From: Saccharomonospora sp. NB11
Lineage (GTDB): Bacteria; Actinomycetota; Actinomycetes; Mycobacteriales; Pseudonocardiaceae
Length of the DNA stretch: 64,000 nucleotides
NCBI RefSeq assembly: GCF_015910535.1
Contig: NZ_JACBJG010000006.1
Span: 186,001 to 250,000 of the forward strand
Direction of reading: 5' to 3'
Positions 1,025 to 48,721 of the stretch are shown piece after piece. Numbering within the stretch: position 1 is the stretch's first letter; each line of letters begins with the position of its first letter. Position numbers and translations under genes: made by a program. The notes beneath the pieces were generated by a model. The model made no database searches. It had not been told where the DNA came from and saw nothing but the letters and a program-made list of their open reading frames with translations.

Positions 1025-1086
1025 CCGCGCATTTAGCCCGCTAAACGCGGTCTGGTTGGCACGACGTTCAGCGGGCTAAGTGCGGG
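1025..1086. repeat. Two PR26 palindromic repeats downstream of mycP
   Basis: Copy one (1025-1051) has the core TTTAGCCCGCTAAA. Copy two (about 1062-1086) is in the opposite orientation, with the core TTCAGCGGGCTAA and a degraded right arm. Both lie just after the minus-strand mycP stop at 1101 and could act as its terminator. They belong to a 26-bp element found 19 times in the window (consensus arms ACCGCGTTT and AAACGCGGT). Confidence 0.7.
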
Positions 1087-1100
1087 GCCTGGATCCGCTA

Positions 1101-2621
1101 TCAGGGGCGGGCTGGTTTTTCGGCGTCCTTGCGGTTGCGGCGGATGGTGTGGACCACGAACAGGGTGATGCCCAAGGCGGCGAGCGCGCCGCCGGAGCCC
1201 GCCAGTGCGACGACCATCGGCGTCCAGTTGCGGTTGGCCGGGGGTGGCATGTCCGACGGGAGGCTGATTGCTTCCGCCGGAGGCATATTCTCCTCGGCAG
1301 GCACCGTGGCCGTCAGCGCGGCCATGGGGTCGATCACGCCGTAGCCGATGAAGTTGTCACGGCCGCCCTCCGCCGCTGGATGCTGCGCCGTGAACTTGAT
1401 CCGGTGCATCACCTGGTGGGCATCGAGGTGCGGGTACTTCGCCCTGACCAGAGCTGCCAGGCCCGCGACGTACGGCGCCGCGAAACTGGTGCCCTTGATC
1501 TCCTGCGCTTCACCGCCGTCGATCATCATGTTCGCCAGGCCGTCCGAGCCGGCCGCGGGGTCCAGCGAGATGATGCCCGTGCCGGGCGCGGCGACACTGA
1601 CCCACGGTCCGTGCATGCTGAAGTCCGCCACGGAACCGGTGTCGTCGATGGCAGCCACCGAGAGGACGTCGTCGGCGAACCAAGGCGGCGTCACGATCGT
1701 CGTCGGGTTCTCCGCCAACGCCTGGCTGTTCTGCTCGCAGTTCGTGTTGTCGGACGCGTTCCCCGCCGCCGACACGATCACTGCGTCCTTGGTGTTCACC
1801 GCGTAGTCGATGGCGGCCTGGAGCCTTACTTCATCCGGTGTAATTTGGCCACCGCTGGGACGGCAGTTGTTGATCGAGATGTTGATGACCTGGGCGCCTC
1901 GGTCGGCCGCGTGCACGATGGCCTTGGCGAGCGTGGAGAGTGTTCCCGCGCCTCCGCCATCCTGCGTTCGGCTGTCCTGAGAGGGCCCAGTGGTCGGCGC
2001 ACCTCCGACGGCCGCGCCACCATCGTCGACCGAGTAGTTCTGGCTGGACTGCCGGATCGAAAGGATCTTGGCGTCGGGCGCGACACCGATGAACCCGATG
2101 TGGTCAGGAGTGTCCGCGGCGATGATGCCCGCGACCTCGGTACCGTGGCCGTCGCAGTCCTCGAGCCCCTTGCTGTCGCGCTTGACGTAGTCGGCGACAC
2201 CCTCGACGTCGTGCTTGAAGTAGGTGTGGTTGCGCACTCCGGTGTCGATCACGGCGACCTTCACGGGCTCGCCGTTGTCGCTGCGAAGGCCGATGCCGCC
2301 CGTGGTGGAGCGCATGAGCGAGTGCACTTCGTCGATGCGCAGGTAGCGCTGACCCCACGGGGCGTTCTGGATCTCGTCCTTGTATCGCAGGTCCTGCTCG
2401 ACGCATCCAGTGGTCTGCTTGTACCTCTTGTCCGGCTGACCGTCGGCCGAGGGACGCTTGCTCTTGTCCACCGGCGGCGGCGTGGCGTGGTTCCCGCTGT
2501 CGCCGGAATCGGGCGTCTCCTGTGCGAACGCCGGCACCGGTGCCAGTGCCGACCCGGCGACACCGATGGCGGCGGCGAGCGCCAACGCCCTGCTCTGTTT
2601 CATCGTCCGGGCCGAACGCAC
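1101..2621 (-). CDS. mycP: Mycosin: type VII secretion subtilisin-like protease
   Basis: Membrane-anchored S8 serine protease of the ESX secretion apparatus, acting outside the cytoplasmic membrane. In the family it stabilises the membrane complex and trims substrates. With the chosen start it has 506 residues: signal sequence to about residue 33 (ending PAFA), catalytic Asp126 in VIDTGV, His159 in DGHGTEVAG, Ser379 in GTSFAAP, and a C-terminal transmembrane helix followed by RRNRK. The GTG at 2621 has AGGGGG five bases before it. A GTG at 2663 overlaps the eccD stop as GTGA and would add a 14-residue leader, and an ATG at 2603 is also possible. It is the downstream partner of eccD, so the two are probably cotranscribed and translationally coupled. 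Family assignment is certain; start is less so. Confidence 0.93.
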   Translation of the reverse strand: MRSARTMKQSRALALAAAIGVAGSALAPVPAFAQETPDSGDSGNHATPPPVDKSKRPSADGQPDKRYKQTTGCVEQDLRYKDEIQNAPWGQRYLRIDEVHSLMRSTTGGIGLRSDNGEPVKVAVIDTGVRNHTYFKHDVEGVADYVKRDSKGLEDCDGHGTEVAGIIAADTPDHIGFIGVAPDAKILSIRQSSQNYSVDDGGAAVGGAPTTGPSQDSRTQDGGGAGTLSTLAKAIVHAADRGAQVINISINNCRPSGGQITPDEVRLQAAIDYAVNTKDAVIVSAAGNASDNTNCEQNSQALAENPTTIVTPPWFADDVLSVAAIDDTGSVADFSMHGPWVSVAAPGTGIISLDPAAGSDGLANMMIDGGEAQEIKGTSFAAPYVAGLAALVRAKYPHLDAHQVMHRIKFTAQHPAAEGGRDNFIGYGVIDPMAALTATVPAEENMPPAEAISLPSDMPPPANRNWTPMVVALAGSGGALAALGITLFVVHTIRRNRKDAEKPARP

Positions 2622-2659
2622 GCGAACCCCCCTGGAAGTCGTGGCGCGAGTGGAGTGGG

Positions 2660-4054
2660 TCACCCGATGTCGAGGTGGCGCAGCGTGGAGTAGAGCCCCA
2701 TCACCGCGAGAGCCAGCGGAAGCACCGACGCGATGCACGCCGCCTCGAAGATCTCCACCGCACGCCGCATCGGCGGGGTGAAGCGCTGGTTCGGGAAAAC
2801 GACACCCAGCACGAGCGCGGCGGCCGCGAGCACGATGATGGTGCCGAACACCCACAGCAGGCGGCCTTCGGCGTCCTCCGTCCACATCCAGCCGAGGACG
2901 ATGCCCGCGGCGGAGATCATGCCGGTGGTGAGCAGCGCGACGGCCTGGCTGCCGTTGGCGTAGGTGCGGGCGCGCAGCAGCAGCACGAGCGTGGCGATGA
3001 CCGCGGTCAGGACGCCCCAGATGTCTCCCGACGTCGCGGTGAGCATCGAGGCGATGGCGGTGACCGAACCACTGCCGATGAGCAGGCCGGTCATGTAGTT
3101 GTGCGCGGCGCTCGTCTTGCGCTCGATGGAGGAGTAGTCGGGGTAGCCCGTGTCCTCCTTGAGCTCCTCGGCGGTGTTCGGAATGTGGGGCAGCGGCAGC
3201 TTGGCGAGCCAGATGGTGGCCCTCGGCAGCATCGAGATGCCCGCGAGCGCGGCGGCGGCGGTGCCGGCCGCGATACCGGGGGTCGGGTGGGCGATCAGCG
3301 TGGCGACGAGGAAGGCGAGGACCCCGAACACGCCTGCCGTCGCCGCGGCGATGAACACGGTGAGACCGGTGCCCATCAGCACGATGCAGGCGGCGGCGAC
3401 GACCACGACCAGGGCACTGGCCAACAGGAGGTTCGCTCTGACCGTCACGTCGGGGACGATGTAGAAGCCGCTGACGAACGCGAGTGGCAGTCCGCCGGCC
3501 GCGGCGATGACGACCCCTGTCGACTGCGCGTCGTACGCCTTCACGAGCGTGGCGCCCACGGCCACGCAGGCGATCGCGGCGACACCTCCGGTGATCGCGA
3601 TGGCCAGTCCATTACCGCCGTAGAGCGGGCCCGCGAAGAACAACGCGAGTGCGGCACTCAGCAGAGCGATCGCGCCGGCAACGTGTCCGATCCGCTGCGC
3701 GGTTTCCTTGGTCCACGGACGGAAACTGTCGGGTTCCGCTTCGGCGATCGCGTCGACGACGTCGTCGTAGAGCGGTGGCGGTGGATTTTCGTTCCGCTTG
3801 CGAAGTTGGAGCAGTTCGCCGTCGACGATGCCGAGCGAGGCGAGCGTGCGGCTCGGGTCGAGGGGAGCGTCGCCCAATTTCGCGAGTGCCCACCCACCGT
3901 GACGGGCGCCGCCGTCGGGGCTGACCTCTTTTGCCATCTCCAGCAACATGGGCATGAGGTCGGCCACCGCCACGTCGGCAGGAAGCGCGACATCGATGCG
4001 GGTTCGCGGTGCGACCACCGTGACCCTGCTGAATACTGTCGTGCCCGTTGCCAC
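2660..4054 (-). CDS. eccD: Type VII secretion integral membrane protein EccD
   Basis: 464-residue channel component of the ESX core complex. Residues 1-85 form the ubiquitin-like (YukD-type) cytosolic domain (TVFSRVTVVAPRTRIDVALP, ending LLQLRKRNE). A short linker leads to roughly eleven hydrophobic helices from residue 122 to the end, the usual EccD build. The GTG start at 4054 has AGGGGG seven bases upstream; the longer open frame upstream lacks a ribosome site. It is transcribed divergently from eccC with about 220 bases between them, and its stop overlaps a possible mycP start by four bases. By order (mycP-eccD divergent from eccC and followed by WXG100 genes) it corresponds to EccD4 of ESX-4, the ancestral-type system that lacks EccE. 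Confidence 0.93.
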   Translation of the reverse strand: MATGTTVFSRVTVVAPRTRIDVALPADVAVADLMPMLLEMAKEVSPDGGARHGGWALAKLGDAPLDPSRTLASLGIVDGELLQLRKRNENPPPPLYDDVVDAIAEAEPDSFRPWTKETAQRIGHVAGAIALLSAALALFFAGPLYGGNGLAIAITGGVAAIACVAVGATLVKAYDAQSTGVVIAAAGGLPLAFVSGFYIVPDVTVRANLLLASALVVVVAAACIVLMGTGLTVFIAAATAGVFGVLAFLVATLIAHPTPGIAAGTAAAALAGISMLPRATIWLAKLPLPHIPNTAEELKEDTGYPDYSSIERKTSAAHNYMTGLLIGSGSVTAIASMLTATSGDIWGVLTAVIATLVLLLRARTYANGSQAVALLTTGMISAAGIVLGWMWTEDAEGRLLWVFGTIIVLAAAALVLGVVFPNQRFTPPMRRAVEIFEAACIASVLPLALAVMGLYSTLRHLDIG

Positions 4055-4277
4055 CTTTTCGCCCCCTACCTGGAGATTTCGCCGCAGGGTGTTTATACCG
4101 CGTCGCGGAAACAACCCGCCTGCGGGCCGGTAACCTTCCCGAACCAGCCCCATGGTGTCCTGATGCCGCCCTAGTATTAACGCACCCGGGCCACGTGTGG
4201 GGGCAGTTCCGGCGAAAGTGCCGGTGCGTGCTTTCCTCACGGGCCGTCAGTCGCCGAGTCGAAGAGGGGTCCTTTCG

Positions 4278-7200
4278 GTGAGCACGCTGCAGTTCAAGCG
4301 GTCGCCAAGGCTGGCTGCGCCCCGTCCACCGGGTGGCGAGGTGCACCTCGAGCCGCCACCCGAGGTCCCGAGGACGATCCCCGGCAACATCATCATGAAG
4401 TTGATGCCGGTGGTCATGATCGTGGCCATGCTCGGCATGGTCGTCTTCATGTTCACCGCGAGTGAGCGGACACCGAGCCCGTTCATGCTGATGATGCCGC
4501 TGATGATGATGATGTCGATGGTCGGCATGTTCGCCGGCGGCGGCAAGGGCGGTCAGCAGAAGAAGGCCGAGATGAACGAGGACCGCAAGGACTATCTGCG
4601 GTACCTCGGGCAGATGCGGGATCGCGCCCGCGAAGCGATGATCGATCAGCGGGCGTCGCTGGAATGGGTCCATCCGGATCCGGACACGCTGTGGTCGATG
4701 GCGTCCACCCGGCGCATGTGGGAACGGCGTCAGAGCGACCAGGACTTCCTGCACCTCCGCGTGGGACGCAGCTCGCACCGGCTCGCCACCCGCCTCGTGC
4801 CTCCGCAGACCGGTCCCGTCGACGAACTCGAACCGATCGCGACGCTCGCGCTGCGGCGGTTCGTCCGTGCCCACTCGATCGTGCCGGACCTGCCGACGCA
4901 GATCACGCTGCGCGGATTCGCGGCCGTCGCGATGCAGGGCGACAAGTCGCTGACGCGGGGACTGACACGGGCCATGCTCGCCCAGCTCGTCACGTTCCAC
5001 AGTCCCGACGACGTCCTCATCGCCATCGCGACCACCGGTCGGGCCAAGGAGGAGTGGGAGTGGGCCAAGTGGCTGCCCCACGTCCAGCACCCGAGCCTGT
5101 CCGACGGCATCGGTCAGCTGCGCATGATGACCGGTTCGCTCGCGCAGGTCGAGCACTGGCTCGACGAGGAGCTGCGTGATCGGCAGCGGTTCTCCCGCAA
5201 CGCCACGCCCGCGCCCGACCAGCCGCACATCGTCATCGTGCTCGACGACGCGGAGGTCACCGGTGAGGAGCAGATCCTCCTGGAAGAGGGGCTCGTCGGC
5301 GTCACCCTCATCGACCTGTCCGACTCGATCGGCAACCTCGCCGCCCGTCGCGGTCTTCGCCTCGTGGTGGAGGAGGAGCGTCTCGGCGCCCGCAGCGCCG
5401 GCGGTGTCGAGTGGTTCGGTCGTCCGGACACCCTGAGCCTGGTCGAGGTCGAGGCGCTCGCGCGCAAGCTCTCGCCGTACCGCATGAGCACCGGTGCCGC
5501 GGAGGACAGCGAGGAACAGCCGCTGCTGTCCAACCCCTCGCTGCTCGAGCTGCTGGGCATCCCCGGCGACCCGATGACGTTCGACGTGCAGCAGGCGTGG
5601 CGGCCGAGGCCGATCCGCGACCGCTACCGCGTCCCCTTCGGCGTCGGCGAGTACGGCCAGCCGGTCGAGCTGGACATCAAGGAAGCGGCCATGGAGGGCA
5701 TGGGCCCCCACGGTCTGTGCATCGGTGCGACGGGTTCCGGTAAGTCAGAGTTCCTCCGCACCCTCGTGCTCGGCATGTTGGCGACCCACTCCTCGACGAC
5801 GTTGAACTTCGTGCTCGTCGACTTCAAGGGTGGTGCGACCTTCCTCGGTCTGGACAAGGCGCCGCACGTCTCCGCGGTCATCACGAACCTCGCGGACGAG
5901 GTCACGCTGGTCGACCGTATGAAGGATGCGCTCGCCGGCGAGATGAACCGCCGCCAGGAAGCGCTGAAGAACGGCGGCAACTTCAAGAACGTGTGGGAGT
6001 ACGAGAAGGCGCGCGAGAACGGCGCCGACCTCGACCCGCTGCCCGCGTTGTTCATCGTGGTCGACGAGTTCTCCGAGCTGTTGTCCGCGAAGCCCGACTT
6101 CATCGACCTGTTCGTCGCGATCGGTCGTCTGGGCCGGTCGCTGCAGATGCACATGCTCCTCGCCTCGCAGCGTCTCGAGGAAGGAAAGCTGCGTGGTCTG
6201 GACTCGCACCTCTCGTACCGCATCGGTCTGAAGACCTTCTCGGCTGCGGAGTCGCGAGCCGCGATCGGTGTGCCGGACGCGTTCGAACTGCCGTCGGTGC
6301 CCGGTGGTGGGTACCTGAAGTACGACACCTCCACGCTCGTCCGGTTCAAGGCGTCGTACGTGTCGGGGCCCTACCGGCCCGCGGGTATCAAGACCGCCGC
6401 TCCGGGTGCGAAGGTCGTGCGCGCGGACAAGCGACCGCAGCTGTTCGTGCCCGACTTCGTCGAGCTGCCGAAGGAGCCGGAGCCCGAGCCCGAGCCCGTC
6501 GAGCAGCCGCAGCAGCAACAGTCCGAGGAAGCTGTCGAACCGAGCGAGCTCGACGTCATCGTCAGCAGGCTCGTCGGCCAGGGGCCGCCTGCCCACGAGG
6601 TGTGGTTGCCGCCGTTGAAGGAGCCGAACTCGCTGGACACGTTGTTGCCGAACCTCAATCCCACGGAGGATCGTGGGTTGTCGCCGGTGGGGTTCTTCGG
6701 CAATGGTCGGTTGCAGGTGCCGTTGGGGATCGTCGACCGGCCGTATGAGCAGCGTCGTGACCCGTTGTGGGCGGACTTCTCGGGTGGTGCCGGTCATGGT
6801 GTCGTCGTGGGTGGTCCGCAGTCGGGCAAGTCGACGATGCTGCGTACGTTGATCATGTCGATGGCGTTGACGCACACGCCGGAGGAAGCGCAGTTCTACT
6901 GCATCGACCTCGGTGGTGGGACGCTGGCCGCGTTGGACGGTCTGCCGCACGTGGGTGGTGTGGCTGTCGCGCGGCGTGAGCCGGACAAGGCGCGTCGTAT
7001 CGTTGCGGAGCTGACGACGCTGGTCAACGAGCGGGAGGCGCGCTTCGGGGCGCTGGGTGTCGACTCGATGAACGATTTCCGGAACCGGAAGCGTCGTGGT
7101 GACATCACCGCCGAGCAGGATCCGTTCGGGGATGCGTTCCTCATCGTCGACGGGTGGCGTGCCCTGCGTGACGATTTCGACGAGCTGGAGCCGCAGATCA

Positions 7201-8288
7201 CCAAGCTGGCGGTTCAGGGTCTGACCTACGGTGTGCACGTCATCATCGCGTCCAACCGGTGGGCTGACATCCGTCCCGCGATCAAGGACATGCTGGGCAC
7301 GCGGTTCGAGCTGCGGCTCGGTGATCCAAGTGAGTCGGATATCGACCGCCGGGTGGCGGTCAATGTTCCTGCTGGTCGTCCGGGTCGCGGGCTCACGCGG
7401 GACAAGCTGCACTTCCTCAGTGGTTTGCCGAGGATCGATGGTTCCAGCAACGACGCCGACCTCGGTGACGGTGTGACGGACGCGGTGAAGAAGATCTCGG
7501 CGGCGTGGAAGGGTCGGCATGCGCCGCAGGTGCGGTTGCTGCCCGACGTCATGCCGTACGAGGAGCTGCTGCTCCAGGACAAGCACAAGGACAGCAAGCT
7601 CATCCCGATCGGTGTCGACGAGGACGAGCTCGCCCCGATGTATCTCGACTTCAATGCTGATCCGCACTTCCTGGCCTACGCCGACGGCGAGTCGGGGAAG
7701 ACGAACCTGTTGCGGCAGATCGTGCGTGGCATCACCGACCGGTACACCAAGAAGGAAGCGCTCATCATTCTGGTGGACTACCGGCGTACGATGCTGGGCT
7801 TCGTCGACGGCGACCAGTTGCTCGGTTACGCGGTGTCGGCCAACCAGTTGGACGGCATGATGAAGGAGGTCGCGCAGTCGATGGCCAAGCGGCTGCCCGG
7901 CCCGGACGTGACTCCGCAGCAGTTGAAGGACCGGTCGTGGTGGACGGGGCCGGAGCTGTTCGTGGTGGTCGACGACTACGACCTCGTCGCGACTTCCACC
8001 AACAACCCGTTGCGACCGTTGGCCGAGTACCTGCCCCAGGCCAAGGACGTGGGCCTGCACGTCGTCGTCGCCCGCCGTACCGGTGGTGCCGCACGCACCG
8101 GTATGGACCCGATCATCGGCAAGCTCAAGGAACTCGCCATGCCGGGTCTGGTCATGAACGGGTCCAAGGACGAAGGCCAGTTGCTCGGCAACGTCAAGGC
8201 CGGACCCATGCCGCCGGGACGTGGCTACTTCGTCAGCCGGAAGGTGGGCAAGAAGCTCATGCAGGTGTCGTGGATCGCGCCAGAATGA
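4278..8288 (+). CDS. eccC: Type VII secretion FtsK/SpoIIIE ATPase EccC
   Basis: Motor of the ESX apparatus: a 1,336-residue single-chain EccCa-EccCb protein. Two N-terminal membrane helices (about residues 38-58 and 65-83, very methionine-rich) are followed by three FtsK-like ATPase domains. All three Walker A loops look intact: GATGSGKSE near 483, GGPQSGKST near 845 and DGESGKTN near 1136. Walker B-like strands include LFIVVDEF and ALIILVDY. Domain one normally hydrolyses ATP, while domains two and three bind the C-terminal signal of WXG100 substrates. The GTG start at 4278 (VSTLQFKRSPRLA) matches the conserved EccC N-terminus and has GAGGGG eight bases upstream. It heads the plus-strand half of the locus, which ends with two WXG100 genes. 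Confidence 0.96.
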   Translation: MSTLQFKRSPRLAAPRPPGGEVHLEPPPEVPRTIPGNIIMKLMPVVMIVAMLGMVVFMFTASERTPSPFMLMMPLMMMMSMVGMFAGGGKGGQQKKAEMNEDRKDYLRYLGQMRDRAREAMIDQRASLEWVHPDPDTLWSMASTRRMWERRQSDQDFLHLRVGRSSHRLATRLVPPQTGPVDELEPIATLALRRFVRAHSIVPDLPTQITLRGFAAVAMQGDKSLTRGLTRAMLAQLVTFHSPDDVLIAIATTGRAKEEWEWAKWLPHVQHPSLSDGIGQLRMMTGSLAQVEHWLDEELRDRQRFSRNATPAPDQPHIVIVLDDAEVTGEEQILLEEGLVGVTLIDLSDSIGNLAARRGLRLVVEEERLGARSAGGVEWFGRPDTLSLVEVEALARKLSPYRMSTGAAEDSEEQPLLSNPSLLELLGIPGDPMTFDVQQAWRPRPIRDRYRVPFGVGEYGQPVELDIKEAAMEGMGPHGLCIGATGSGKSEFLRTLVLGMLATHSSTTLNFVLVDFKGGATFLGLDKAPHVSAVITNLADEVTLVDRMKDALAGEMNRRQEALKNGGNFKNVWEYEKARENGADLDPLPALFIVVDEFSELLSAKPDFIDLFVAIGRLGRSLQMHMLLASQRLEEGKLRGLDSHLSYRIGLKTFSAAESRAAIGVPDAFELPSVPGGGYLKYDTSTLVRFKASYVSGPYRPAGIKTAAPGAKVVRADKRPQLFVPDFVELPKEPEPEPEPVEQPQQQQSEEAVEPSELDVIVSRLVGQGPPAHEVWLPPLKEPNSLDTLLPNLNPTEDRGLSPVGFFGNGRLQVPLGIVDRPYEQRRDPLWADFSGGAGHGVVVGGPQSGKSTMLRTLIMSMALTHTPEEAQFYCIDLGGGTLAALDGLPHVGGVAVARREPDKARRIVAELTTLVNEREARFGALGVDSMNDFRNRKRRGDITAEQDPFGDAFLIVDGWRALRDDFDELEPQITKLAVQGLTYGVHVIIASNRWADIRPAIKDMLGTRFELRLGDPSESDIDRRVAVNVPAGRPGRGLTRDKLHFLSGLPRIDGSSNDADLGDGVTDAVKKISAAWKGRHAPQVRLLPDVMPYEELLLQDKHKDSKLIPIGVDEDELAPMYLDFNADPHFLAYADGESGKTNLLRQIVRGITDRYTKKEALIILVDYRRTMLGFVDGDQLLGYAVSANQLDGMMKEVAQSMAKRLPGPDVTPQQLKDRSWWTGPELFVVVDDYDLVATSTNNPLRPLAEYLPQAKDVGLHVVVARRTGGAARTGMDPIIGKLKELAMPGLVMNGSKDEGQLLGNVKAGPMPPGRGYFVSRKVGKKLMQVSWIAPE

Positions 8289-8292
8289 CGAA

Positions 8293-8332
8293 GGTGACGT
8301 ACGGTCGTCGCGTCCGGCGGCCGTACGTCACC
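8293..8332 (+). terminator. 12-bp hairpin between eccC and the Hsp70-like gene
   Basis: GGTGACGTACGG (8293-8304) pairs perfectly with CCGTACGTCACC (8321-8332) around a 16-base loop, 4 bases after the eccC stop. There is no T-tract, so it may attenuate or protect mRNA rather than fully terminate. Confidence 0.5.
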
Positions 8333-8411
8333 ACGTTGTCCTGACACGACTCTCGACGAACGGGCTTCGGACAACGACGATGAGGTAGGAACCAGGGAGG
8401 CGGGAGCGGTT

Positions 8412-10382
8412 GTGACGCTGCGGGTGGCGGTGGACTTCGGGACATCGAGCACCTGTGTCGTCGCCTCCGTCAACGGGCGCGAACCTCAGGTCGTGGTCAT
8501 CGACGGCCAGCCGATCATGCCGTCGGCCGTGTACGCGGCTCAGGACGGCACGCTCTTCGTCGGTCAGGAGGCCGAGCGACAGGCCGCGGTCGACCCCTCG
8601 CGGTTCGAACCACATCCGAAACGGCGGATCGACGAGGGCGAGCTGCTGCTCGGGGACACGGTGCTGAGCGTCGTCGACGTCGTCCACGCCGTGTTGCGGC
8701 GTGCGGTGTCGGAAGCGCGCCGTATCGCGGGCAATGCCGAAGTGTCGTTGTTGGTGCTCACGCACCCTGCCGAGTGGGGTGCGCTGCGCACGCGACTGCT
8801 GCGCCAGGCCGCAGGGAGGCTGGCGCACGAGGTGGCCCTCGTTCCCGAGCCGGTGGCGGCGGCGGTGTTCCACGCGTCGACCTTCGCGCCGACGGAGGTG
8901 AACCAGGAACGGACCGTCGAGTTCAGCGGCCGACCCGGTGACACCACGGCGGTGCTCGACCTGGGTGGCGGGACGATCGACGTCAGCGTGGTGCGCCGAG
9001 CGCAGTCGAACGGGCAGAACCACTTCGAGGTGCTGGCCACCCGTGGCGACCCGGGATTCGGTGGCGCGGACATCGACCAGGCGCTGCTCGAACACGTGGG
9101 GTCTCTCGTCTCGAAGGCCGACGTCGACGCCTGGGAGCAGCTCGTCCAAGGACGGGAACTGGCGGACCGACGACGTCGACGCGTGCTGCGACAGGACGTG
9201 CGCGGGGCGAAGGAGACGTTGTCCAGGCACGCGTACACCGACGTGCCGATGCCGCCGCCGTTCGCCGACGCGCACGTGACGCGCGAGGACTTGGAACGGC
9301 TCGTGCGGACGCCCCTGGGACGCGCCGCCGAGCTGACCAAGGCGACGATCGAGGAAGCAGGTCTGCGTCCTCAGCAATTGACGGCGATCTTCCTCGTCGG
9401 AGGTTCGAGCCGGATCCCGATGGTGTCGAGGCTCGTGCACGAGCGAACGGGAGTGGTCCCGACCACGCTGGACCAACCCGAGACCGTCGTGGCACGGGGT
9501 GCCCTGCGCGCGGTGCAGGTGTTGCCCGATCGCACGGGTGTGTTGCCGGGCACCACGTCCGCCCGCGCAGCAGGAGGGCACCTGGGGGGAGATCATCGCA
9601 CCGAGGTCGTCGCGAAGCCCGGTACACCGCCGCGTGCCTCGGTTCCGCAGCGTCCCGGTCCGGTGATGGCATTGCAGGGACCACGCGGTGGGGCAGCTCC
9701 GTTCGCCTCGCCTGGTGTCGCCACGCCTCGACCGCCGACGATGTCCGCGCCGTTCGGGCCGCCTTCGCCACCGCGAGGGCAGACTCTTCCCGCGCATTTC
9801 CAGGAGCGGGCTTCCGGGACGCCATCCGGTTCGCCGCGTCGCCGTCGCGTCGTCGTCGCGGCGATCGTGACGGCGGTGGCTCTCGTCGCCGCGGCTGTCG
9901 CGTTGACGTTGGCGGTCACCGAGGGCGGCGACGAGGGGACCGTCGAAGGGCGCACGTACGCCCAGTACTCCTACAAGTTCGTCGCCCCGGCGGACTGGAC
10001 GCAGACCGACGACAACGTGGAGGCCCGGCAGGTCGTCGTGAAGCCGCAGGAAGCCCAGGACACGGCCGACGACGACCTCGTCGTGGTGCAGGAGATCGTG
10101 CTGCCGTACGACGGGGAGGCCCAACGACCGCGTTTAGCCCGCGAACTGCGTGAGTTGACCAGCGCGGCTCCCGACGTCTACTCCGACTTCGCGGAGCACT
10201 ACGAGTACGCGGGGCGCGACGTCATCCACTACGAGGAGAGCAAGCCTGCCGCCACGGTGCAGTGGTACGTCCTTGCGCGCGGTACCGCTCAAGTGAGCAT
10301 CGGCTGCCAGGAGGCGCAGGCTCCAACGCGTGTGCGAACCGCCTGCGAGCAGATCGTTCGCACCCTCGAATTCACCAACTGA
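8412..10382 (+). CDS. Hsp70-like / type VII secretion-associated membrane protein
   Basis: 656-residue three-part protein. Residues 1-375 are an actin-fold Hsp70 ATPase domain with the phosphate loops VDFGTSSTCVV and LDLGGGTIDVSVV and the adenosine motif VGGSSRIP; the usual DnaK peptide-binding domain is absent. A proline-rich linker (about 385-475) leads to one transmembrane helix (about 480-503, after RRRRVVVAA). The C-terminal 140 residues (YSYKFVAPADWTQT onward) resemble the domain of Rv3446c-type type VII secretion-associated proteins. The predicted topology puts the ATPase in the cytosol and the C-domain outside. The GTG start at 8412 has GGGAG five bases upstream. It lies between eccC and the WXG100 genes exactly where Rv3446c lies in ESX-4. 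A role in substrate handling is inference. A PR26 repeat lies in frame near its 3' end. Confidence 0.85.
   Translation: MTLRVAVDFGTSSTCVVASVNGREPQVVVIDGQPIMPSAVYAAQDGTLFVGQEAERQAAVDPSRFEPHPKRRIDEGELLLGDTVLSVVDVVHAVLRRAVSEARRIAGNAEVSLLVLTHPAEWGALRTRLLRQAAGRLAHEVALVPEPVAAAVFHASTFAPTEVNQERTVEFSGRPGDTTAVLDLGGGTIDVSVVRRAQSNGQNHFEVLATRGDPGFGGADIDQALLEHVGSLVSKADVDAWEQLVQGRELADRRRRRVLRQDVRGAKETLSRHAYTDVPMPPPFADAHVTREDLERLVRTPLGRAAELTKATIEEAGLRPQQLTAIFLVGGSSRIPMVSRLVHERTGVVPTTLDQPETVVARGALRAVQVLPDRTGVLPGTTSARAAGGHLGGDHRTEVVAKPGTPPRASVPQRPGPVMALQGPRGGAAPFASPGVATPRPPTMSAPFGPPSPPRGQTLPAHFQERASGTPSGSPRRRRVVVAAIVTAVALVAAAVALTLAVTEGGDEGTVEGRTYAQYSYKFVAPADWTQTDDNVEARQVVVKPQEAQDTADDDLVVVQEIVLPYDGEAQRPRLARELRELTSAAPDVYSDFAEHYEYAGRDVIHYEESKPAATVQWYVLARGTAQVSIGCQEAQAPTRVRTACEQIVRTLEFTN
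10127..10151. repeat. PR26 palindrome inside the Hsp70-like gene
   Basis: About 22 of 26 positions match the copy at 31659-31684, in the GCCCGC orientation. It is read in frame as RPRLARELR in the extracytoplasmic C-domain, so the element has been accommodated as coding sequence. Confidence 0.6.
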
Positions 10383-10394
10383 CGGCCCCCTACC

Positions 10395-10420
10395 ACCGCG
10401 TTTCGCAGGCGAAACGCGGT
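10395..10420. repeat. PR26 palindrome upstream of the WXG100 pair
   Basis: Perfect 11-bp arms ACCGCGTTTCG and CGAAACGCGGT around the loop CAGG, 13 bases after the Hsp70-like gene stop. By position it could terminate or attenuate transcription between that gene and the WXG100 pair. Confidence 0.75.
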
Positions 10421-10582
10421 GAGCCGGCCCCCACCACGGCACCGGTTCCAGGCCATCGCATTCACGCTCGCAACTACTTGACCACTTTGGGCGACAACGC
10501 GGAACCGGACGTGGCACTGTCTCCGTCGTAGAGCCAGTACCAACGAAGTACGGCACCCACGAGCGAAGGGGGTAACACCCAA

Positions 10583-10900
10583 ATGGCAGGCGGTTTTACC
10601 GGGACACCGGAGCAGTTCCAGCAGGCGTACCAGGACGTCGACCAGATCAAGGCGTCGATGGACCAGAACCTCAACCAGCTGCGCAACAACATCGAGGCGA
10701 CGCAGGCCGGCTGGCAGGGCGAGGCGGCGAAGGCCTTCCAGAACGTGATGGCCGCCTTCGACGAGAAGACCCGCAAGCTGAACGAGGCGCTCGGCAACAT
10801 CGGTGAGCTGCTCCAGCAGTCCGGTGTCAAGTACCAGCAGGCGGAAGAGGAGCAGAACGCCGCCATCAGCAACATCGGCAACGCCCTCGGCGGCCTCTGA
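10583..10900 (+). CDS. WXG100 protein, first of pair (EsxU/EsxB-like)
   Basis: 105-residue type VII secretion substrate of the ESAT-6/CFP-10 family. It is entirely helical, with the hairpin turn W44-Q-G46 and the export motif Y84-x-x-x-E88 near the C-terminus, both at the expected spacing. It starts at an ATG preceded by GAAGGGGG. It forms a pair with the next gene, whose WxG and YxxxD motifs fall at the same residue numbers; such partners normally fold into a four-helix heterodimer and leave through EccC/EccD. By synteny the pair equals Rv3445c/Rv3444c (EsxU/EsxT), but sequence alone does not decide which is which. Confidence 0.92.
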   Translation: MAGGFTGTPEQFQQAYQDVDQIKASMDQNLNQLRNNIEATQAGWQGEAAKAFQNVMAAFDEKTRKLNEALGNIGELLQQSGVKYQQAEEEQNAAISNIGNALGGL

Positions 10901-10947
10901 TCCGACACAGCTCGCCATTCACAAGCTTTCACTGAACGGGAGGAACC

Positions 10948-11235
10948 ATGCCGAACGGCATCGTTGTTGATTACGCCACCATCCACACCGCTGCTGAGGA
11001 CTGCCAGCGCACCGGTTCGGAGCTGGACGCGCTGTTCGAGGACCTCAAGGCTCGCCTCGCCCCGCTGGTCGACTCCTGGAGCGGTGAGGCCATGGAGGCC
11101 TGGCAGCACTGCCAGAACGAGTGGAACCAGTCGCTCGACGAGATGAAGCAGGTCCTGGCCCAGATCGCCACCGCCCTGCCGCAGATCGCCGACGGCTACC
11201 AGGCCACCGACAAGGGCATCCAGGGGATGTTCTGA
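10948..11235 (+). CDS. WXG100 protein, second of pair (EsxT/EsxA-like)
   Basis: 95-residue helical hairpin protein with W44-S-G46 at the turn and Y84-x-x-x-D88 as C-terminal export signal; it ends GIQGMF. The ribosome site GGGAGGAACC precedes the ATG. It lies 47 bases downstream of its partner and is followed by a terminator, so the two are the last genes of the plus-strand ESX operon. Two cysteines (C19, C55) sit one in each helix and could be bridged outside the cell, which is unusual for the family; that is inference. Confidence 0.92.
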   Translation: MPNGIVVDYATIHTAAEDCQRTGSELDALFEDLKARLAPLVDSWSGEAMEAWQHCQNEWNQSLDEMKQVLAQIATALPQIADGYQATDKGIQGMF

Positions 11236-11250
11236 TTCGGCTCCACGAGG

Positions 11251-11288
11251 AACCGGGCTCCGCGACAGCGGGCCCGGTTCTTTCGTTT
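11251..11288 (+). terminator. Terminator of the ESX plus-strand operon
   Basis: AACCGGGC (11251-11258) pairs with GCCCGGTT (11272-11279) and is followed by CTTTCGTTT, 16 bases after the last WXG100 stop. Confidence 0.75.
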
Positions 11289-14009: not shown

Positions 14010-14035
14010 ACCGCGTTCAGCCCGCGGAACGCGGT
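14010..14035. repeat. PR26 palindrome between rpsI and glmM
   Basis: Full-length copy with arms ACCGCGTTC and GAACGCGGT around AGCCCGCG. It lies upstream of glmM, beyond the rpsI terminator, so it is not needed to end transcription of the ribosomal operon. Confidence 0.8.
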
Positions 14036-15900: not shown

Positions 15901-15902
15901 AC

Positions 15903-19732: not shown

Positions 19733-19779
19733 GGCAGGAGAGTAGCCGACCTCACGGCTCGCGAGCAGCGCCGCCCGAG

Positions 19780-19836
19780 GCGCGTTCCGCGGGCGAACTG
19801 CGGGTCCCACACCGCGTTCTGCCCGCGAAAGGTGGT
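19780..19836. repeat. Two PR26 palindromes between a hydrolase gene and glmS
   Basis: Copy one (19780-19804) is in the GCGGGC orientation and copy two (19811-19836) in the GCCCGC orientation, only six bases apart, so the pair itself forms a larger inverted repeat. They sit in a divergent promoter region, where a terminator role is unlikely. Confidence 0.7.
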
Positions 19837-24077: not shown

Positions 24078-24256
24078 ACCGCGTTTCGCGGGCAGAACGC
24101 GGTCCGTGGGGACGCAGGGAGGCGCGTTCCGCGGGCAGAACGCGGTCAACGACGCGCCACGTCCGCGGGCGGCATGCTCCGACAGTCGGGCACCGTGAGG
24201 CGGCCCCGCGTCTCGACGGCCTTTCGACCGACCGCGTTTCGCGGGCAAAACGCGGT
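24078..24256. repeat. Three PR26 palindromes between the SGNH hydrolase gene and xylB
   Basis: Copies at 24078-24103, 24121-24146 and 24231-24256, all in the GCGGGC orientation and nearly identical to each other. They occupy most of the 337-base divergent gap 23995-24331, where I see no other gene or convincing promoter. Being between divergent genes, they are not terminators. Confidence 0.85.
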
Positions 24257-27956: not shown

Positions 27957-28433
27957 GTGACGCAGGAGAGTGTGGAGCTGCCGACCCCGGACGACGCCAT
28001 GGCGTTCGGGCGCGCGCTGGGCAAGGTGCTGAGGGCGGGCGACCTGGTGCTGCTGGCCGGTCCGCTCGGGGCGGGCAAGACCACGATGACCAGGGGGATC
28101 GCCGACGGCATGGGTGTCGAGGGGCGAGTCAGCTCGCCGACGTTCGTCCTCGCGCGCGTGCACCCGGCCGGTGAGTCGGGGGTGCCGCTCGTGCACGTCG
28201 ACGCCTACCGGCTGGGCGGCGACTTGGCGCAGCTCGACGACCTCGACCTCGACACCGAGCTGGAGCGGGCGGCGGTCGTGGTGGAGTGGGGCGAGGGCAT
28301 GGCCGAGCGCTTGGTGGACGACGACTACCTCGTGGTGCGGCTCGACCGCCGCGCCGACGACGTCCGCGTGGTGCGGCTCGAACCGCACGGCGAGTGGCGG
28401 GCGCGGGTCGCCGCCGCGTCTTTCGCGGGCTGA
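27957..28433 (+). CDS. tsaE: tRNA t6A-modification ATPase TsaE
   Basis: 158-residue P-loop ATPase (YjeE family) that powers the TsaB-TsaD complex making N6-threonylcarbamoyladenosine at position 37 of ANN-decoding tRNAs. Walker A is GPLGAGKTT (Lys41); also conserved are SPTFVL, HVDAYRL and VEWGEG. The GTG at 27957 has AGGAGGA upstream. The final residues and the stop come from a PR26 palindrome (28413-28440): the protein ends AASFAG with TGA inside the repeat. Its partners tsaB and tsaD lie 3.4 kb downstream, beyond an inserted resistance cassette. Confidence 0.93.
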   Translation: MTQESVELPTPDDAMAFGRALGKVLRAGDLVLLAGPLGAGKTTMTRGIADGMGVEGRVSSPTFVLARVHPAGESGVPLVHVDAYRLGGDLAQLDDLDLDTELERAAVVVEWGEGMAERLVDDDYLVVRLDRRADDVRVVRLEPHGEWRARVAAASFAG

Positions 28434-28604
28434 ATGCGGTTCGTGGGCGGGGGCCGGGGGCCGGTGAACCGCCTTTCGCGGGCTAAACGCGGTCAGGGCC
28501 CGGCAGTGCGGCGTTCAGGGGCCGGGGCACGTTCCGCGGGCGAAACGCGGTGTGTGGCTGACGGCGCCGGTCTCGTCGATCGCGTTCCGCGGGCTAAACG
28601 CGGT
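28413..28604. repeat. Four-copy PR26 cluster at the left edge of the resistance cassette
   Basis: Copies at 28413-28440 (two-base insertion in the left arm, overlaps the tsaE stop), 28468-28493, 28526-28551 and 28579-28604 (its last base is the first base of the tetR-like stop). All are in the GCGGGC orientation, with gaps of 27, 32 and 27 bases. The regular look recalls a CRISPR array, but the copies diverge and no cas gene is present. Confidence 0.85.
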
Positions 28605-31000: not shown

Positions 31001-31669
31001 ATGAGTGACGTGACCATCGCTGCCGAGGCGGAGTTCGACCGACAGGTCGCTCGTCTCGTGGAGCTGGGGTATCCCGATCTGGCCGGGCTTTCGGCCGAGC
31101 GGTTCGGCGAGGTGGTTGCGCCGTTGCGAAAGGCGGCGAGTTCCCGTGCGCTCGGCGACCACGATCCGGCGAACGGGCAGGTGGGGTTCGTGCTCGTGGT
31201 GACTCGACGGCTGGTGTCGATCGAGGATGCCATGCAGCGGACGACGTTGGTCGGCAGGAGCAAGCCGGGCTTCGTCGACCGATCGTTCGAGGAAGGTGCA
31301 CTTGCCCGGTTCGTCGCGCCGGACACGGTGCGTCTTCCCGATGCGGACGCCTACCTGTTGTTCGACGTTCAGCGGGGCGAGGAGTTCTGCGGTGAGGTCC
31401 CGCGCGACGCGATGGACGTGATCGCCGGTCGGGCGCGGACCGTGTTGACCATCGAGGAGGGCATCGCGCTGTTCACGCTGTACCCGGAGGTGCTGGTGAA
31501 GAACAAGTGCTACATGCTCGGCGGGTCGCGCTGCGGCGACCGTCGGGTGCCCGCCCTCTGGATCAGTCAGCACGCGCCGAAGCTGGGCTGGTGTTGGGAA
31601 CGCAACCCGCACACCTGGCTCGGCATGGCCTCCGCCGGGGGCCGGGTGGGGCCGCGTAACCGCGTTTAG
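31001..31669 (+). CDS. Uncharacterised protein (possibly DUF5701 family)
   Basis: 222 residues from the ATG at 31001, which has AGGGGG five bases upstream. It is mixed alpha/beta and soluble, with conserved-looking motifs (YLLFDVQRGEEFCGEVP; LTIEEGIALFTLYPEVL; CYMLGGSRCGDRRVPALWIS; LGWCWERNPHTWLGMASAGGR). I associate these with a small actinobacterial family of unknown function, from memory only. The last residues and the TAG stop come from a PR26 palindrome (PRNRV, then TTTAG inside the repeat), so the element truncated or re-ended the protein. It lies between the vgb and tsaB genes and may belong to the same insertion as the resistance genes. Confidence 0.75.
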   Translation: MSDVTIAAEAEFDRQVARLVELGYPDLAGLSAERFGEVVAPLRKAASSRALGDHDPANGQVGFVLVVTRRLVSIEDAMQRTTLVGRSKPGFVDRSFEEGALARFVAPDTVRLPDADAYLLFDVQRGEEFCGEVPRDAMDVIAGRARTVLTIEEGIALFTLYPEVLVKNKCYMLGGSRCGDRRVPALWISQHAPKLGWCWERNPHTWLGMASAGGRVGPRNRV

Positions 31670-31743
31670 CCCGCGAAACGCGGTGTCGGGCCGACCTGGT
31701 CGGCTGTGCCTCCGTGACCTGCGTTCCGCGGGCTGAACGCGGT
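31659..31743. repeat. Two PR26 palindromes at the right edge of the cassette
   Basis: Copy at 31659-31684 (GCCCGC orientation, perfect arms, contains the upstream gene's stop) and copy at 31718-31743 (GCGGGC orientation), 33 bases apart. They mirror the four copies on the other side of the resistance genes. Confidence 0.85.
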
Positions 31744-38625: not shown

Positions 38626-39564
38626 ATGCCGATCGTCGAAAAAGTGCTGCGAGTCGCCGCGTTCGGTGGAAGCCGAGCCGCGACTCAGAGGGGCCAGGCT
38701 CCGGATGGAGGTGGTGCCGGCTCGTCGTCCGCGTCGGCTGTGCAGGAGGCACAGCGGTGCCAGTGGCTGGAGGCCGTGGTGCACGGTGCGTGTGGGCGGT
38801 ACGCCGCGGCGACGACGTTGCTGGAACCGTTGAGCCGTCGTGGTGGGGCGGTGGCCTCCCTGGCGGCGTCCGCCCTGGCGTCGCATCGGCGACAGCTCGG
38901 CGGGCACGCCGCGGCGCTGCGGCTCGACGGTCTCGCCCTGCGCAGGGCGATCGAGGCCGGTGAGGCGCGTGAGCTGCACTCGACGTCCCCGGGGTGGGAG
39001 TCGGAGGACCCCGATGGTCTGGATGTTCCGGGGGCGCTCGCCGACGCCCTGATCGGGCTGGCGGCGGATCACCTCGGGTTGGGTCGTTTCGCCGAGTCGG
39101 CGGTGTTGCTGAAGAGGGCGGCCGGGGTGGTGGCCGTCAGTGGCTCCTGGCGCACCGAGACCCGCCTCGGTTGGGTGCGAGCCGAGCTCGCCCTCGCCTC
39201 GGGGCGGCCTGCCGACAGCATTTCGCCCGCGGAACGCGCTCTGGAGGTCTCGGAACGCCACGGGGCGGACCGTCACGCCGCCAAGTCGGCCATGGTGCTC
39301 GGGGCCGCGTTGGCGGCGCGCCGGGAAACCGGGGACGAGGATCGGGCGCGGCGTCTCGTGAAATCCGCATTGTCGTCGGCGGAACAAAACGGATGGCGAT
39401 CACTGACGTGGCCCGCTCGCGCACTTCTTGCCGATCTCGAAACTGATCACGAGCTGACAGTTTGGAATCGCTCCAGAACTACTGACGAGTTGAACGAGTT
39501 GCTGGAGTCCACCGATCCGGTGGGACGTCGCTTGGCTCGCGACTCGCCATGGGTGCCGATCTAG
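38626..39564 (+). CDS. Helical-repeat-like conserved protein (Rv3415c-like position)
   Basis: 312 residues from the ATG at 38626; a GTG at 38569 would add 19 residues, but those codons have poor third-position GC. The protein is almost wholly alpha-helical and alanine-rich, with tetratricopeptide-like helices (CGRYAAATTLLEPLSR; LGLGRFAESAVLLKRAAGVV; SPAERALEVSERHGADRHAA). No catalytic motif or membrane segment is seen. M. tuberculosis has an uncharacterised gene at the same place between whiB3 and sigD, so the position is conserved. A partner or regulator of the neighbouring developmental/stress regulators is possible, by context only. A degenerate PR26 copy lies in frame at 39215-39240. Confidence 0.75.
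   Translation: MPIVEKVLRVAAFGGSRAATQRGQAPDGGGAGSSSASAVQEAQRCQWLEAVVHGACGRYAAATTLLEPLSRRGGAVASLAASALASHRRQLGGHAAALRLDGLALRRAIEAGEARELHSTSPGWESEDPDGLDVPGALADALIGLAADHLGLGRFAESAVLLKRAAGVVAVSGSWRTETRLGWVRAELALASGRPADSISPAERALEVSERHGADRHAAKSAMVLGAALAARRETGDEDRARRLVKSALSSAEQNGWRSLTWPARALLADLETDHELTVWNRSRTTDELNELLESTDPVGRRLARDSPWVPI
39215..39240. repeat. Degenerate PR26 match inside the helical-repeat-like gene
   Basis: GCATTTCGCCCGCGGAACGC matches the GCCCGC-orientation core and inner arms; the outer arm bases are changed. It is translated as ISPAERALE, which also suits a natural helix, so this copy is the least certain. Confidence 0.4.
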
Positions 39565-39704
39565 GCCGTTTCCTGGGCGAGAGGGGCCATGCCGACATCC
39601 GGGCGAAGAATCTCCCAAAAAAAGCCACCGGATCGTGTCAAGGTGACACCTAAAGCGTCCGATAGGGGAAGAGGAATGTCACCCGGCTGCAGGAAGGAAC
39701 CCCT

Positions 39705-40301
39705 GTGACGACGGTCTTGATCTGCGACGACCGACGCAGTGTCCGTGAAGGGCTCACGCGCGTGATGTCCGCTGTTCCCGGCGTCAGTCGCATCGACTGT
39801 GTAGCGCACGGTGACGAGTTGCTCGCCCGGTACTCCCGCCAGCCCGTCGACGTCGTGCTGGTGGGCACGCAGCGTGCCGTGCCGACCGGTGTCGAGGCCA
39901 CGCGTCGGTTGGTCTCTGCCAACCCGCAGGCGAACGTCATCGTGTTCGGTGCCCCCGACGACGCCGGCAGCATCGCCGCCGCCATCGCCGGTGGTGCTCG
40001 CGGCTACCTGCGGTGGGACGCCTCGCGCCCCGAGCTCGTCGCCGCGCTCGCGCACACGCTCGCCAGCACGTCCGTGCCCGCGCCCCGTCAGCCCTCCGAC
40101 CCCGGTGTCCAGCTCACTGAGCGTGAACTGCAGGTGCTGCGAGGGATGAGCCAGGGCAAGAGCAATGGACAGATCGGTCGTGAGCTCTACCTGTCCGAAG
40201 ACACCGTGAAGACCCACGCTCGTCGGCTGTTCCGCAAGCTCGGCGTGCGCGACCGGGCCCAGGCCGTGGCCCACGGCTTCCGACGCGGTCTCGTCTCCTG
40301 A
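39705..40301 (+). CDS. BldM-like atypical response regulator
   Basis: 198-residue receiver plus LuxR helix-turn-helix protein. The DNA-binding half (LTERELQVLRGMSQGKSNGQ, then IGRELYLSEDTVKTHARRLF) is very close to Streptomyces BldM as I recall it, and the place next to sigD and guaB is the same. The receiver keeps Asp8-Asp9, but position 54, the phosphorylation site of BldM (Asp54), is glycine (VLVG), and the conserved lysine region reads YLRWDAS. It therefore cannot be phosphorylated in the usual way, which fits a phosphorylation-independent developmental regulator. GTG start with AGGAAGG upstream. The hairpin at 40346 ends the transcript. Confidence 0.88.
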   Translation: MTTVLICDDRRSVREGLTRVMSAVPGVSRIDCVAHGDELLARYSRQPVDVVLVGTQRAVPTGVEATRRLVSANPQANVIVFGAPDDAGSIAAAIAGGARGYLRWDASRPELVAALAHTLASTSVPAPRQPSDPGVQLTERELQVLRGMSQGKSNGQIGRELYLSEDTVKTHARRLFRKLGVRDRAQAVAHGFRRGLVS

Positions 40302-42232: not shown

Positions 42233-42272
42233 GCGCCCGACCGGCGCGCTCGAAGACCCCCCGACACGACGA

Positions 42273-42295
42273 ACGCCCTCCGCGAGGGAGGGCGT
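42273..42295. terminator. Shared hairpin between rsdA and the convergent DUF5319 gene
   Basis: ACGCCCTC (42273-42280) pairs with GAGGGCGT (42288-42295). It lies 41 bases after rsdA and 17 bases from the minus-strand stop, so it may serve both genes. Confidence 0.6.
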
Positions 42296-42311
42296 CGGTC
42301 GCGTTGTGCCG

Positions 42312-44349
<2,038 letters not shown>

Positions 44350-44404
44350 TTCGCACCCCCGCCTCACACGCCGCCTCGCGGTCGAAGAACAGAAGGGATT
44401 TCAC

Positions 44405-45538: not shown

Positions 45539-45607
45539 TCGATCCCGCGTAACCAGCCGGTAACTTACCTCTGGTCAGGAACCGGTTGCGCGGTCTACGC
45601 TCTGCCT

Positions 45608-47335: not shown

Positions 47336-47344
47336 GCCGACGAG

Positions 47345-48721
47345 TCAGGGGCCGCCGACGGCGAGTTCCGTGACGACTGCTCGTCGGAGTGCGCGGGCGG
47401 TGTCGCGGACGTCGTCGGGGTGGTGTCGGGGCACGTCGCCGACGACGATCCGGTCGGCTGTCGTGCGTTCCGCGAGGTCCTGAGCGAGCCGGAGGTCGCG
47501 GGTGAAGACGCCGACGGCCCTGGGTGCGGGACCGGCCGGGTGCAGCGCCGTGGTGAGTGCGGCGTCGGCCGTGTCCGCGACCGACAGCGTGACGACGGGG
47601 CCGGGAGGGTGCCGCTCGGGAAGGCCGTCCACTGCGAGACCGGTCACCACCGTGGGACGGACGACGGCGCCCGACCGATCGCCCCCGAGCAGGACCCTGC
47701 CTCCGCGGGACCGCGCCTCGGCGACCCAGGCCAACGACCGGCGGGCGGCGTCCTCGTCGGGCAACGCGCCGACCGTGACGGCCGTGTCGTAGGGGTCGCC
47801 CACGACGTGGGAGGACAGTGCCTCGGTGAGCGCCGACTCCACGCGGTCGGCCAGCGGCGCGGGCACCACGACGTGTCGGACGGGCAGGTGGATGCGACCT
47901 TCCCAGTCGACCACCGACGCGGCCACGGTCGCCGCCGCACCCTCGACGTCCGGCCAGTCGGGCAGCACGGTGACGTGTGAGTGGCCTGCGGGTGTGGGCA
48001 GCGGGCACAGCCGGGAGTCGGCGGCCAGCAGGTCGGGCGTCCGAGTGGGCAGGACCGAGAACGACTCCGTCGGTGCGCCCGTCTCGGCCAGCGAGTCGGC
48101 GAGCACCTCCGCGAGCGCGAGCGTGGACAGCGAGGCCTGCGGTGGGGGAGCGAGCACCACGGGCGCGCCCACGGCGAGGGCGGCGCCGACCACGCGCGAC
48201 GCGCTCGCCAGCGCTCGGGACGGCGGGACGAGGCCGAGTGCGATTCCGCGTGGCACCTGCCGGAGGACCCGCACGGTCGGCCGGGTGGGCGGGGTGAGCG
48301 GCTCCGCGAGGTGGGTCTCGGACCGCGTTTCGCCCGCGAAATGCGCCGCGTGCCGCAACGTCGCGACCGCGAGAGCCACCTCGGTGGCCGCGTGGGCCAG
48401 TGGCGTGGCGGCCTCGGCGGTGCGCAGTTCGGCGAACTCGTCGGCGCGGGCCTCGACAGCCGCGGCGAGCCGGTCGAGGAGGAGGGCGCGGGTGTGCGGG
48501 GGTGTCGACCGCGTTCTGCCCGCGAAACGCGTCGCGCCGGCCACCGCCCGCTCCACCTGCGCGGGGCTCGGCAGGCACACGGTGGCGACCTCGGTGCCGT
48601 CGTAGGGGTGGTGGACGGAGGCGGTGTCCTCGGCCTGTTCGGGGCGTCCGTCGACCCACGTCTCACGGGGGCTCGGGGTGACCGCGTCCATCGGCTCCAT
48701 GCGCGTGACCGTAACCGCCAC
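47345..48721 (-). CDS. Aldehyde-dehydrogenase homologue lacking the catalytic cysteine
   Basis: 458 residues with the overall ALDH fold ([78 protein letters not shown]). The nucleophile motif, normally N-x-G-Q-x-C, reads [15 protein letters not shown] with no cysteine, and the glutamate of the LELGGK motif is also not recognisable. It is therefore unlikely to oxidise aldehydes and may be a pseudoenzyme. A GTG at 48721 and ATG at 48700 are both possible starts. Two segments, RFAGRTRS (65-72) and FAGETRSE (128-135), are encoded by PR26-like palindromes. It is convergent with choD (9 bases apart) and divergent from guaA. Confidence 0.82.
48322..48347. repeat. PR26 palindrome inside the ALDH-like gene (first)
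   Basis: ACCGCGTTTCGCCCGCGAAA is intact, the outer right arm is changed to TGCGCC. It is read on the minus strand as HFAGETRS. Natural ALDHs often have a similar YFAG turn here, so selection on the protein may have kept or reshaped it. Confidence 0.6.
48508..48533. repeat. PR26 palindrome inside the ALDH-like gene (second)
   Basis: ACCGCGTTCTGCCCGCGAAA followed by CGCGTC: left arm intact, right arm intact for seven bases. It is read as RFAGRTRS in the same frame as the other internal copy. Confidence 0.65.

Follow-up and report, generated by a model that had tools for sequence, protein, structure and literature searches.

Gene block and palindromic sites

The window analysed here, a 64,000-bp stretch of Saccharomonospora sp. 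NB11 (positions 186001-250000 of contig NZ_JACBJG010000006.1), carries 19 copies of a short palindromic site, PR26. The genome (G000 in our numbering) measures 4.30 Mb in 29 contigs, and the contig in question (C26, 315 kb) was read whole. The sites are found in a segment made up of a core gene block in the order S10/rpoA, ESX-4, rpsI/glmM, glmS, groEL and guaB/guaA; some of these gene names are presumed from gene order, and others come from Pfam. A first-pass annotation had described a dispersed repeat with 9-base arms around an 8-base core, and had offered three explanations for it, namely a REP-like (repetitive extragenic palindrome) element, a nucleoid or replication-linked protein site, or an RNA element. 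All 19 copies that it listed are indeed present, 15 of them with the start as given, while four move by one or two bases when brought into register (1026, 1061, 19779 and 28415), and the stretch from 48.6 to 64 kb is, as it had stated, free of copies (Table 1). The array also extends upstream of the window.

Table 1. PR26 sites in the window (window coordinates; the strand is that on which the centre reads GG)
Position	Strand	Feature	Context
1026..1051	-	PR26 site	syntenic site in G001 at 3410604
1061..1086	+	PR26 site, weak (score 21.9)	syntenic site in G001 at 3410641
10127..10152	-	PR26 site	within Hsp70-like gene 8412-10382
10395..10420	+	PR26 site	13 bp past stop of Hsp70-like gene 8412-10382
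14010..14035	-	PR26 site	between rpsI-position gene and glmM-like gene
19779..19804	+	PR26 site	divergent gap ahead of glmS-like gene; 32 bp to next site
19811..19836	-	PR26 site	pair partner of 19779
24078..24103	+	PR26 site	divergent gap; 43 bp to next site
24121..24146	+	PR26 site	pair partner of 24078
24231..24256	+	PR26 site	perfect arms
28415..28440	+	PR26 site	overlaps TsaE gene end by 19 bp; 53 bp to next site
28468..28493	+	PR26 site	convergent gap
28526..28551	+	PR26 site	convergent gap; 53 bp to next site
28579..28604	+	PR26 site	touches stop of TetR-type gene 28604-29233
31659..31684	-	PR26 site, perfect arms	overlaps end of gene 31001-31669 by 11 bp
31718..31743	+	PR26 site	
39215..39240	-	PR26 site	long gap, groEL-position gene to LuxR-type regulator 39762-40301
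48322..48347	-	PR26 site	within aldehyde dehydrogenase-like gene 47345-48700
48508..48533	-	PR26 site, array end	within aldehyde dehydrogenase-like gene 47345-48700

In register, the site spans 26 bp and consists of two 12-bp arms, longer than those first annotated, which flank a central GG that sets its orientation, with the consensus ACCGCGTTT-N-GC - GG - GC-N-AAACGCGGT. Its asymmetry resides in the GG and in the unequal positions 10 and 17; the copy at 10395 has AG at its centre. Among 237 sites scoring >20 in eleven genomes, positions T8, G11, C12, G14, C16 and A19 are near-invariant, yielding the core GCGGGC. No more than three mismatches to the consensus arms were counted in 11 of the 19 window copies, versus a mean of 0.03 in shuffled sequence. 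Comparison of 18 hand-chosen syntenic site pairs between G000 and G001 gave an identity of 0.88 within the site versus 0.71-0.72 in the 60-bp flanks, with single cases in which the flank is as conserved as the site or more so.

Confinement to one segment and occupancy of the same gaps

On C26, 27 candidates reach a matrix score of at least 16 (26 after refinement), and all of them lie between 151,491 and 234,533, an 83-kb segment; the rest of the contig yields scores of 11.8 at most, and a Markov control reached 15. A pattern scan of the whole genome tolerating up to three mismatches returned 13 sites, every one of them in C26. A covariance model built from 21 copies (R1) returned 42 matches at E up to 10 with both strands counted, of which 39 are in C26; of the three outside it, the best has E 0.585. 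PR26 in the window genome is therefore not dispersed, as pattern and model searches alike place its clear copies in a single chromosomal region. Within that region, which is 16% non-coding, sites occupy 12 of the 44 gaps of at least 60 bp, as opposed to none of 109 such gaps outside it (by our own simple gene calls); three of the 27 candidates are located wholly inside predicted genes, and another four run 1-19 bp into the end of a gene.

When the genes of the block were mapped by tblastn into nine other genomes, the same gaps were found to hold sites in four genera (g1, g42, g14 and g15). The shared gaps include those before the secY position, before the infA position, after rplQ, before glmS, and between groEL and the LuxR-type gene, the last of which holds a site in 10/10 genomes tabulated. 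The number and orientation of sites in a given gap vary, and the array is extended on the left in G052 and on the right in G092. The copies at 48322 and 48508 are 186 bp apart, and the distance is identical in G001, G003 and G007. Overall, the positions of PR26 sites are ancient and confined, which makes the find more unusual rather than less so.

These observations bear directly on the REP-like option, according to which a mobilised element would have found a local hotspot. While copy number and orientation within gaps are variable, as such an element would predict, and genome-spread palindromic repeats do exist in two relatives (G023 and G253, see below), no excess of copies was found outside the 83-kb segment and the occupied gaps are common to four genera. 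Both facts contradict this option, which we regard as largely refuted and very improbable.

Two other loci of the block deserve a brief description. The window region 1101-11235 is a type VII secretion locus set amid ribosomal genes, with a subtilase, EccD, an FtsK-type EccC and two WXG100 proteins, and EccB/EccE just upstream. The gene at 29989-30894 contains an internal DNA repeat of 126 bp, and its product belongs to the Virginiamycin B lyase family (PF24684); the gene is present in 4/5 other regions read in the genus, but not in that of G010 or in the regions of other genera.

Spacing of neighbouring sites

Neighbouring PR26 sites are preferentially separated by a whole number of helical turns. 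Of the 104 adjacent pairs less than 100 bp apart, 69 have spacings of 31-33, 41-43 or 52-53 bp, equivalent to 3, 4 and 5 turns, with 29 pairs at 42 bp, 11 at 43 bp, 13 at 32 bp and 12 at 52-53 bp, and these close pairs occur in various combinations of orientation. Over 79 distinct combinations of gap, orientation and spacing, the resultant for a 10.5-bp period is R 0.459, a value which none of 20,000 smeared controls reached; with one spacing taken from each of 33 gaps, the mean R is 0.55 versus about 0.15 expected. The phasing rests on spacings that recur in different gaps; the data indicate a strong preference for 3, 4 and 5 turns, and not that every spacing is phased.

Orientation, transcription and neighbouring genes

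Site orientation is roughly balanced in each site-rich genome, and transcription across the tandem gaps of the window genome agrees with the GG strand in four cases and opposes it in four. An RNA hairpin serving as a terminator or 3'-end stabiliser would account for the bias towards positions just past stop codons, and also for the pairing of 81.9% of arm cells, with covariation above that of shuffles in sites pooled across genera. However, a GCGGGC centre found equally with and against transcription is not what a hairpin in the transcript would require, and, moreover, not one of the 27 candidates is followed by a T-run (8 nt inspected to each side), copies are present in two divergent gaps, and the window has no Rfam match. 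A consensus that differs from genus to genus would produce such covariation in the pooled sites. Shuffling within genomes leaves an excess of pairing at arm pairs 2-25 (z 3.8) and 10-17 (z 2.6), and a weak one at 1-26 (z 1.9), while the other six of the nine varying pairs are independent; the earlier statement that many arms covary thus holds in part only, being clear within genomes for 2-25 and 10-17 alone. Balanced orientation, little covariation and helical-turn spacing together contradict the RNA option, to which we give hardly any credence.

The main rival explanation is local gene control, with PR26 sites acting as operators of a transcription factor that regulates the neighbouring growth genes (ribosomal, ESX-4, glmS, groEL and gua). 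The sites are palindromic, several of them are in divergent or tandem gaps, and their neighbours are indeed growth genes. It is less easily reconciled with the 11 sites that occupy four of the six convergent gaps in the domain, or with the three sites lying wholly inside predicted genes, or with large gaps that contain no site at all (157452-157924, 162526-162951, 176150-176583, 198763-198998, 221494-221905 and 228602-228808) and that, in our own reading, resemble operon starts; nor was any member found in the remaining ~4.2 Mb of the genome. The convergent-gap sites, the in-gene sites and the empty gaps weaken this explanation to the point where we consider it unlikely.

Distribution among relatives

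Within the genus, each of the 12 genomes searched has R1 matches, as have, at E 0.01, 31/200 genomes of the family, representing 13/44 genera. A second model, R2, drawn up from 74 sites in three genera, matched 57/371 Pseudonocardiaceae genomes in 14/44 genera at E 0.001; 48 genomes (8 genera) gave three or more matches and 9 gave a single one, in a count where both strands can match one site. Beyond the family, one weak match each was seen in 2/295 genomes of the class, with the window genome excluded. The exact pattern was found in 111 stretches of GTDB contigs, and the 80 among the matches listed belong to Amycolatopsis, Saccharomonospora piscinae, Prauserella and two metagenome-assembled genomes, names that point to Pseudonocardiaceae as the family; viral contigs had no exact match. 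Locus L213 of S. piscinae aligns to the window contig at 91% and locus L168 at 81%, which agrees, less firmly, with Saccharomonospora as the genus. Matches in draft genomes are divided among several contigs. No description of a PR26 array was found in the titles and abstract openings searched, a set in which subscription journals are mostly not represented.

In six PR26-negative genomes in which the block was read (47 kb only in G020), no site scoring 25 was found, and one stretch scored 14.2. Some relatives have palindromes or repeats of their own. The PR26-negative G023 carries a ~43-bp palindrome with arms GAACGGCACTTTCGCC, found by a k-mer search, whose REP-like spread contrasts with PR26: there are 12 arm hits in the 100-kb block and 48 in 400 kb elsewhere (block and 20 sampled stretches, L302-L306 and L322-L341). 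G253, a member of genus g15 with one weak PR26 match, has a near-perfect ~42-bp palindrome with GTGAGTGTTTAGGGCGGT arms, which came from the same k-mer search and is scattered, with 6 arm hits in the block and 8 in 400 kb elsewhere (L284-L288, L342-L361). G262, also of g15, likewise gives a single weak PR26 match. As both palindromes are spread over the sampled genome and are found outside the block too, we rejected them as a motif replacing PR26. The orthologous block of G105 (L297-L301) contains intergenic tandem-like repeats of AAGCCCGC, with 10-mers counted 15-16 times.

Chromosomal position

The dnaA gene was placed in 18 genomes. On nine complete or near-complete chromosomes, R1 sites form mainly one cluster, with a median at 17-28% of the replichore from dnaA (17-25% along the replication arm in eight of the nine). 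The main cluster lies 404-487 kb from dnaA in G001, 488-547 kb in G002, 427-485 kb in G003, 386-460 kb in G010, 482-544 kb in G011, 667-784 kb in G052, 550-927 kb in G092 and 606-835 kb in G181; the ninth chromosome, G199, is considered below.

Outlying sites, one to four per chromosome, are present in six of ten complete or near-complete chromosomes mapped: two at -459 kb in G010, one at -308 kb in G011, one at -669 kb in G062, two at -683 kb and one each at -809 and -817 kb in G092, three in G181 (-665, -876 and +2751 kb), and two at -668 kb and one at +450 kb in G199. At the thresholds used, G001, G002, G003 and G052 have none. Each of the six chromosomes with outliers has copies on the arm that lacks the main cluster, and in four of these chromosomes their distance from the origin is similar to that of the cluster. 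Inspection by eye of translated neighbours in genus g15 placed several outliers in shared gaps, beside what we take to be DUF445-like genes (G092, G181, G062 and G199) and near what is presumably a second groEL (G092, G181 and G199). On the most far-reaching reading (see below), a putative PR26-binding protein might also act where both arms are held side by side.

Search for a putative binding protein

One candidate for a protein recognizing PR26 is ParB, either the chromosomal ParB itself or a KorB/Noc-like paralogue, for which the sites could be secondary centromeres. The PR26 core resembles three known recognition sequences: TTTAGC-GG-GCTAAA is similar to the RK2 KorB operator TTTAGCGGCTAAA, and there is also likeness to the KorA operator GTTTAGCTAAAC (both as given in PMC11790492) and, in the form GTTTCGC-GG-GCGAAAC, to parS. 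Ten of the 12 genomes of the genus contain GTTTCACGTGAAAC, which we take to be the parS word. However, the two-base centre of PR26 alters the half-site spacing, and the ParB family TIGR00180 has a single match in 15 of 18 PR26-positive genomes, the extra matches in G007, G062 and G047 not being common to other positives. On this count, no additional ParB/Noc/KorB-type protein common to the positives was found as a PR26 reader. The ParB stretch GRSRPVITNTIRLL, which we assume to contain the recognition helix, is the same in all 22 genomes (of 30) for which the reading frame was picked correctly, 13 positive and 9 negative, so that carriers and non-carriers do not differ in it. PR26 and parS were also rejected as one and the same site, perfect parS words being located near dnaA and not in the array (G000, G001, G002, G003, G010 and G011). 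Altogether, a centromere-type role appears quite unlikely, more so than local gene control.

TetR-, LuxR-, ECF sigma- and YbaB-type proteins turned up in Pfam scans of 50 proteins of the block. None of the block genes, however, occurs in every one of the nine positive regions compared and in none of the six negative ones; several of these regions were read in part, so that a gene missing from one of them need not be missing from the genome. The LuxR/response-regulator protein at 39762-40301, presumably BldM to judge from its position, is 99-100% identical in the nine PR26-positive genomes compared and 96-100% identical in the four PR26-negative ones where it was read, an exceptionally high degree of conservation.

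A candidate sequence-marked chromosomal domain

We propose, with a probability of about 0.6, that PR26 is the site array of a cooperative dimer which marks one chromosomal domain. Among the three options initially offered, the best fit is the nucleoid or replication-linked protein site. A putative symmetric (dimeric) DNA-binding protein of Pseudonocardiaceae would bind PR26 at about 20-40 sites, one per 3-12 kb, mostly intergenic and mainly within one conserved core-gene block part-way along the arm. Dimers on neighbouring sites, most commonly separated by 3, 4 or 5 turns, would share a helix face, and the bound sites would confer on the block a distinct nucleoprotein identity, making it a sequence-marked chromosomal domain, much as matS/MatP marks Ter. 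The array would then serve in domain folding, anchoring or segregation rather than in local gene control. The more specific claim, that this is a sequence-encoded, previously undescribed macrodomain in the arm interior of an actinobacterial lineage, organized by a cooperative dimer on phased 26-bp sites, is tentative, and we would put it slightly below even odds.

Several observations weigh against this proposal. When each distinct spacing is counted once, no 10.5-bp period is seen (R 0.07, 31 values), and a first, less complete site list, derived from incomplete R1 lists, gave R 0.135. In the window genome, tandem-gap copies tend to adjoin the upstream stop codon, as those of a 3'-end element would, and arm pairs 2-25, 10-17 and, weakly, 1-26 covary within genomes. 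Even in the domain, 13 of 23 gaps of at least 150 bp are without a site. Weak copies elsewhere may be missed, since few candidates were scored per genome: 150 in the model searches (20-33 in the large searches), and in the R1 search of G000, 150 of 4714 first-look candidates. The six PR26-negative genomes retain the same gene block as far as read (G105 without the ribosomal end), indicating that the sites are dispensable over evolution. Finally, in G199 the cluster occupies the opposite arm, at -1.12 to -1.44 Mb, and so the array does not depend on a set distance from the origin; an inversion that took the genes along could explain its position.

To our knowledge, domain-defining site arrays have been described for few places only, namely Ter in enterobacteria and the origin regions via parS or maoS. 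If the proposal is true, a confined and conserved array with whole-turn spacing in the arm interior would provide a direct handle on the folding of bacterial chromosome arms, in a family which includes Amycolatopsis and for which sites, carriers and non-carriers are in hand.

Comparison with known systems

REP sequences and BIMEs (bacterial interspersed mosaic elements) are short intergenic palindromes with neighbours in different orientations. PR26 is like them in both respects, but it is not found genome-wide, and its old positions in gaps are common to several genera. Palindromic multi-copy sites are also a feature of parS/ParB, as well as of Noc and KorB, and the PR26 half-site GTTT(C/A)GC resembles those of parS, KorB OB and KorA OA; PR26 differs in having extra central bases and in its location away from oriC, and most positive genomes have only the ordinary ParB. 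With maoS/MaoP of the E. coli Ori macrodomain it would share the property of a domain-defining DNA sequence (PMC5441646), except that maoS is one 17-bp site, while PR26 has dozens of sites. The nearest known kind is matS/MatP, with 23 matS sites in the E. coli Ter macrodomain (PMC5441646). PR26 is not filed as matS, because its clusters are located in the arm interior and not in the terminus, and it differs further in its non-palindromic GG centre, in its clustered copies with whole-turn spacing, and in belonging to a different phylum. In both systems, nevertheless, short sites of similar number are placed in one chromosomal domain.

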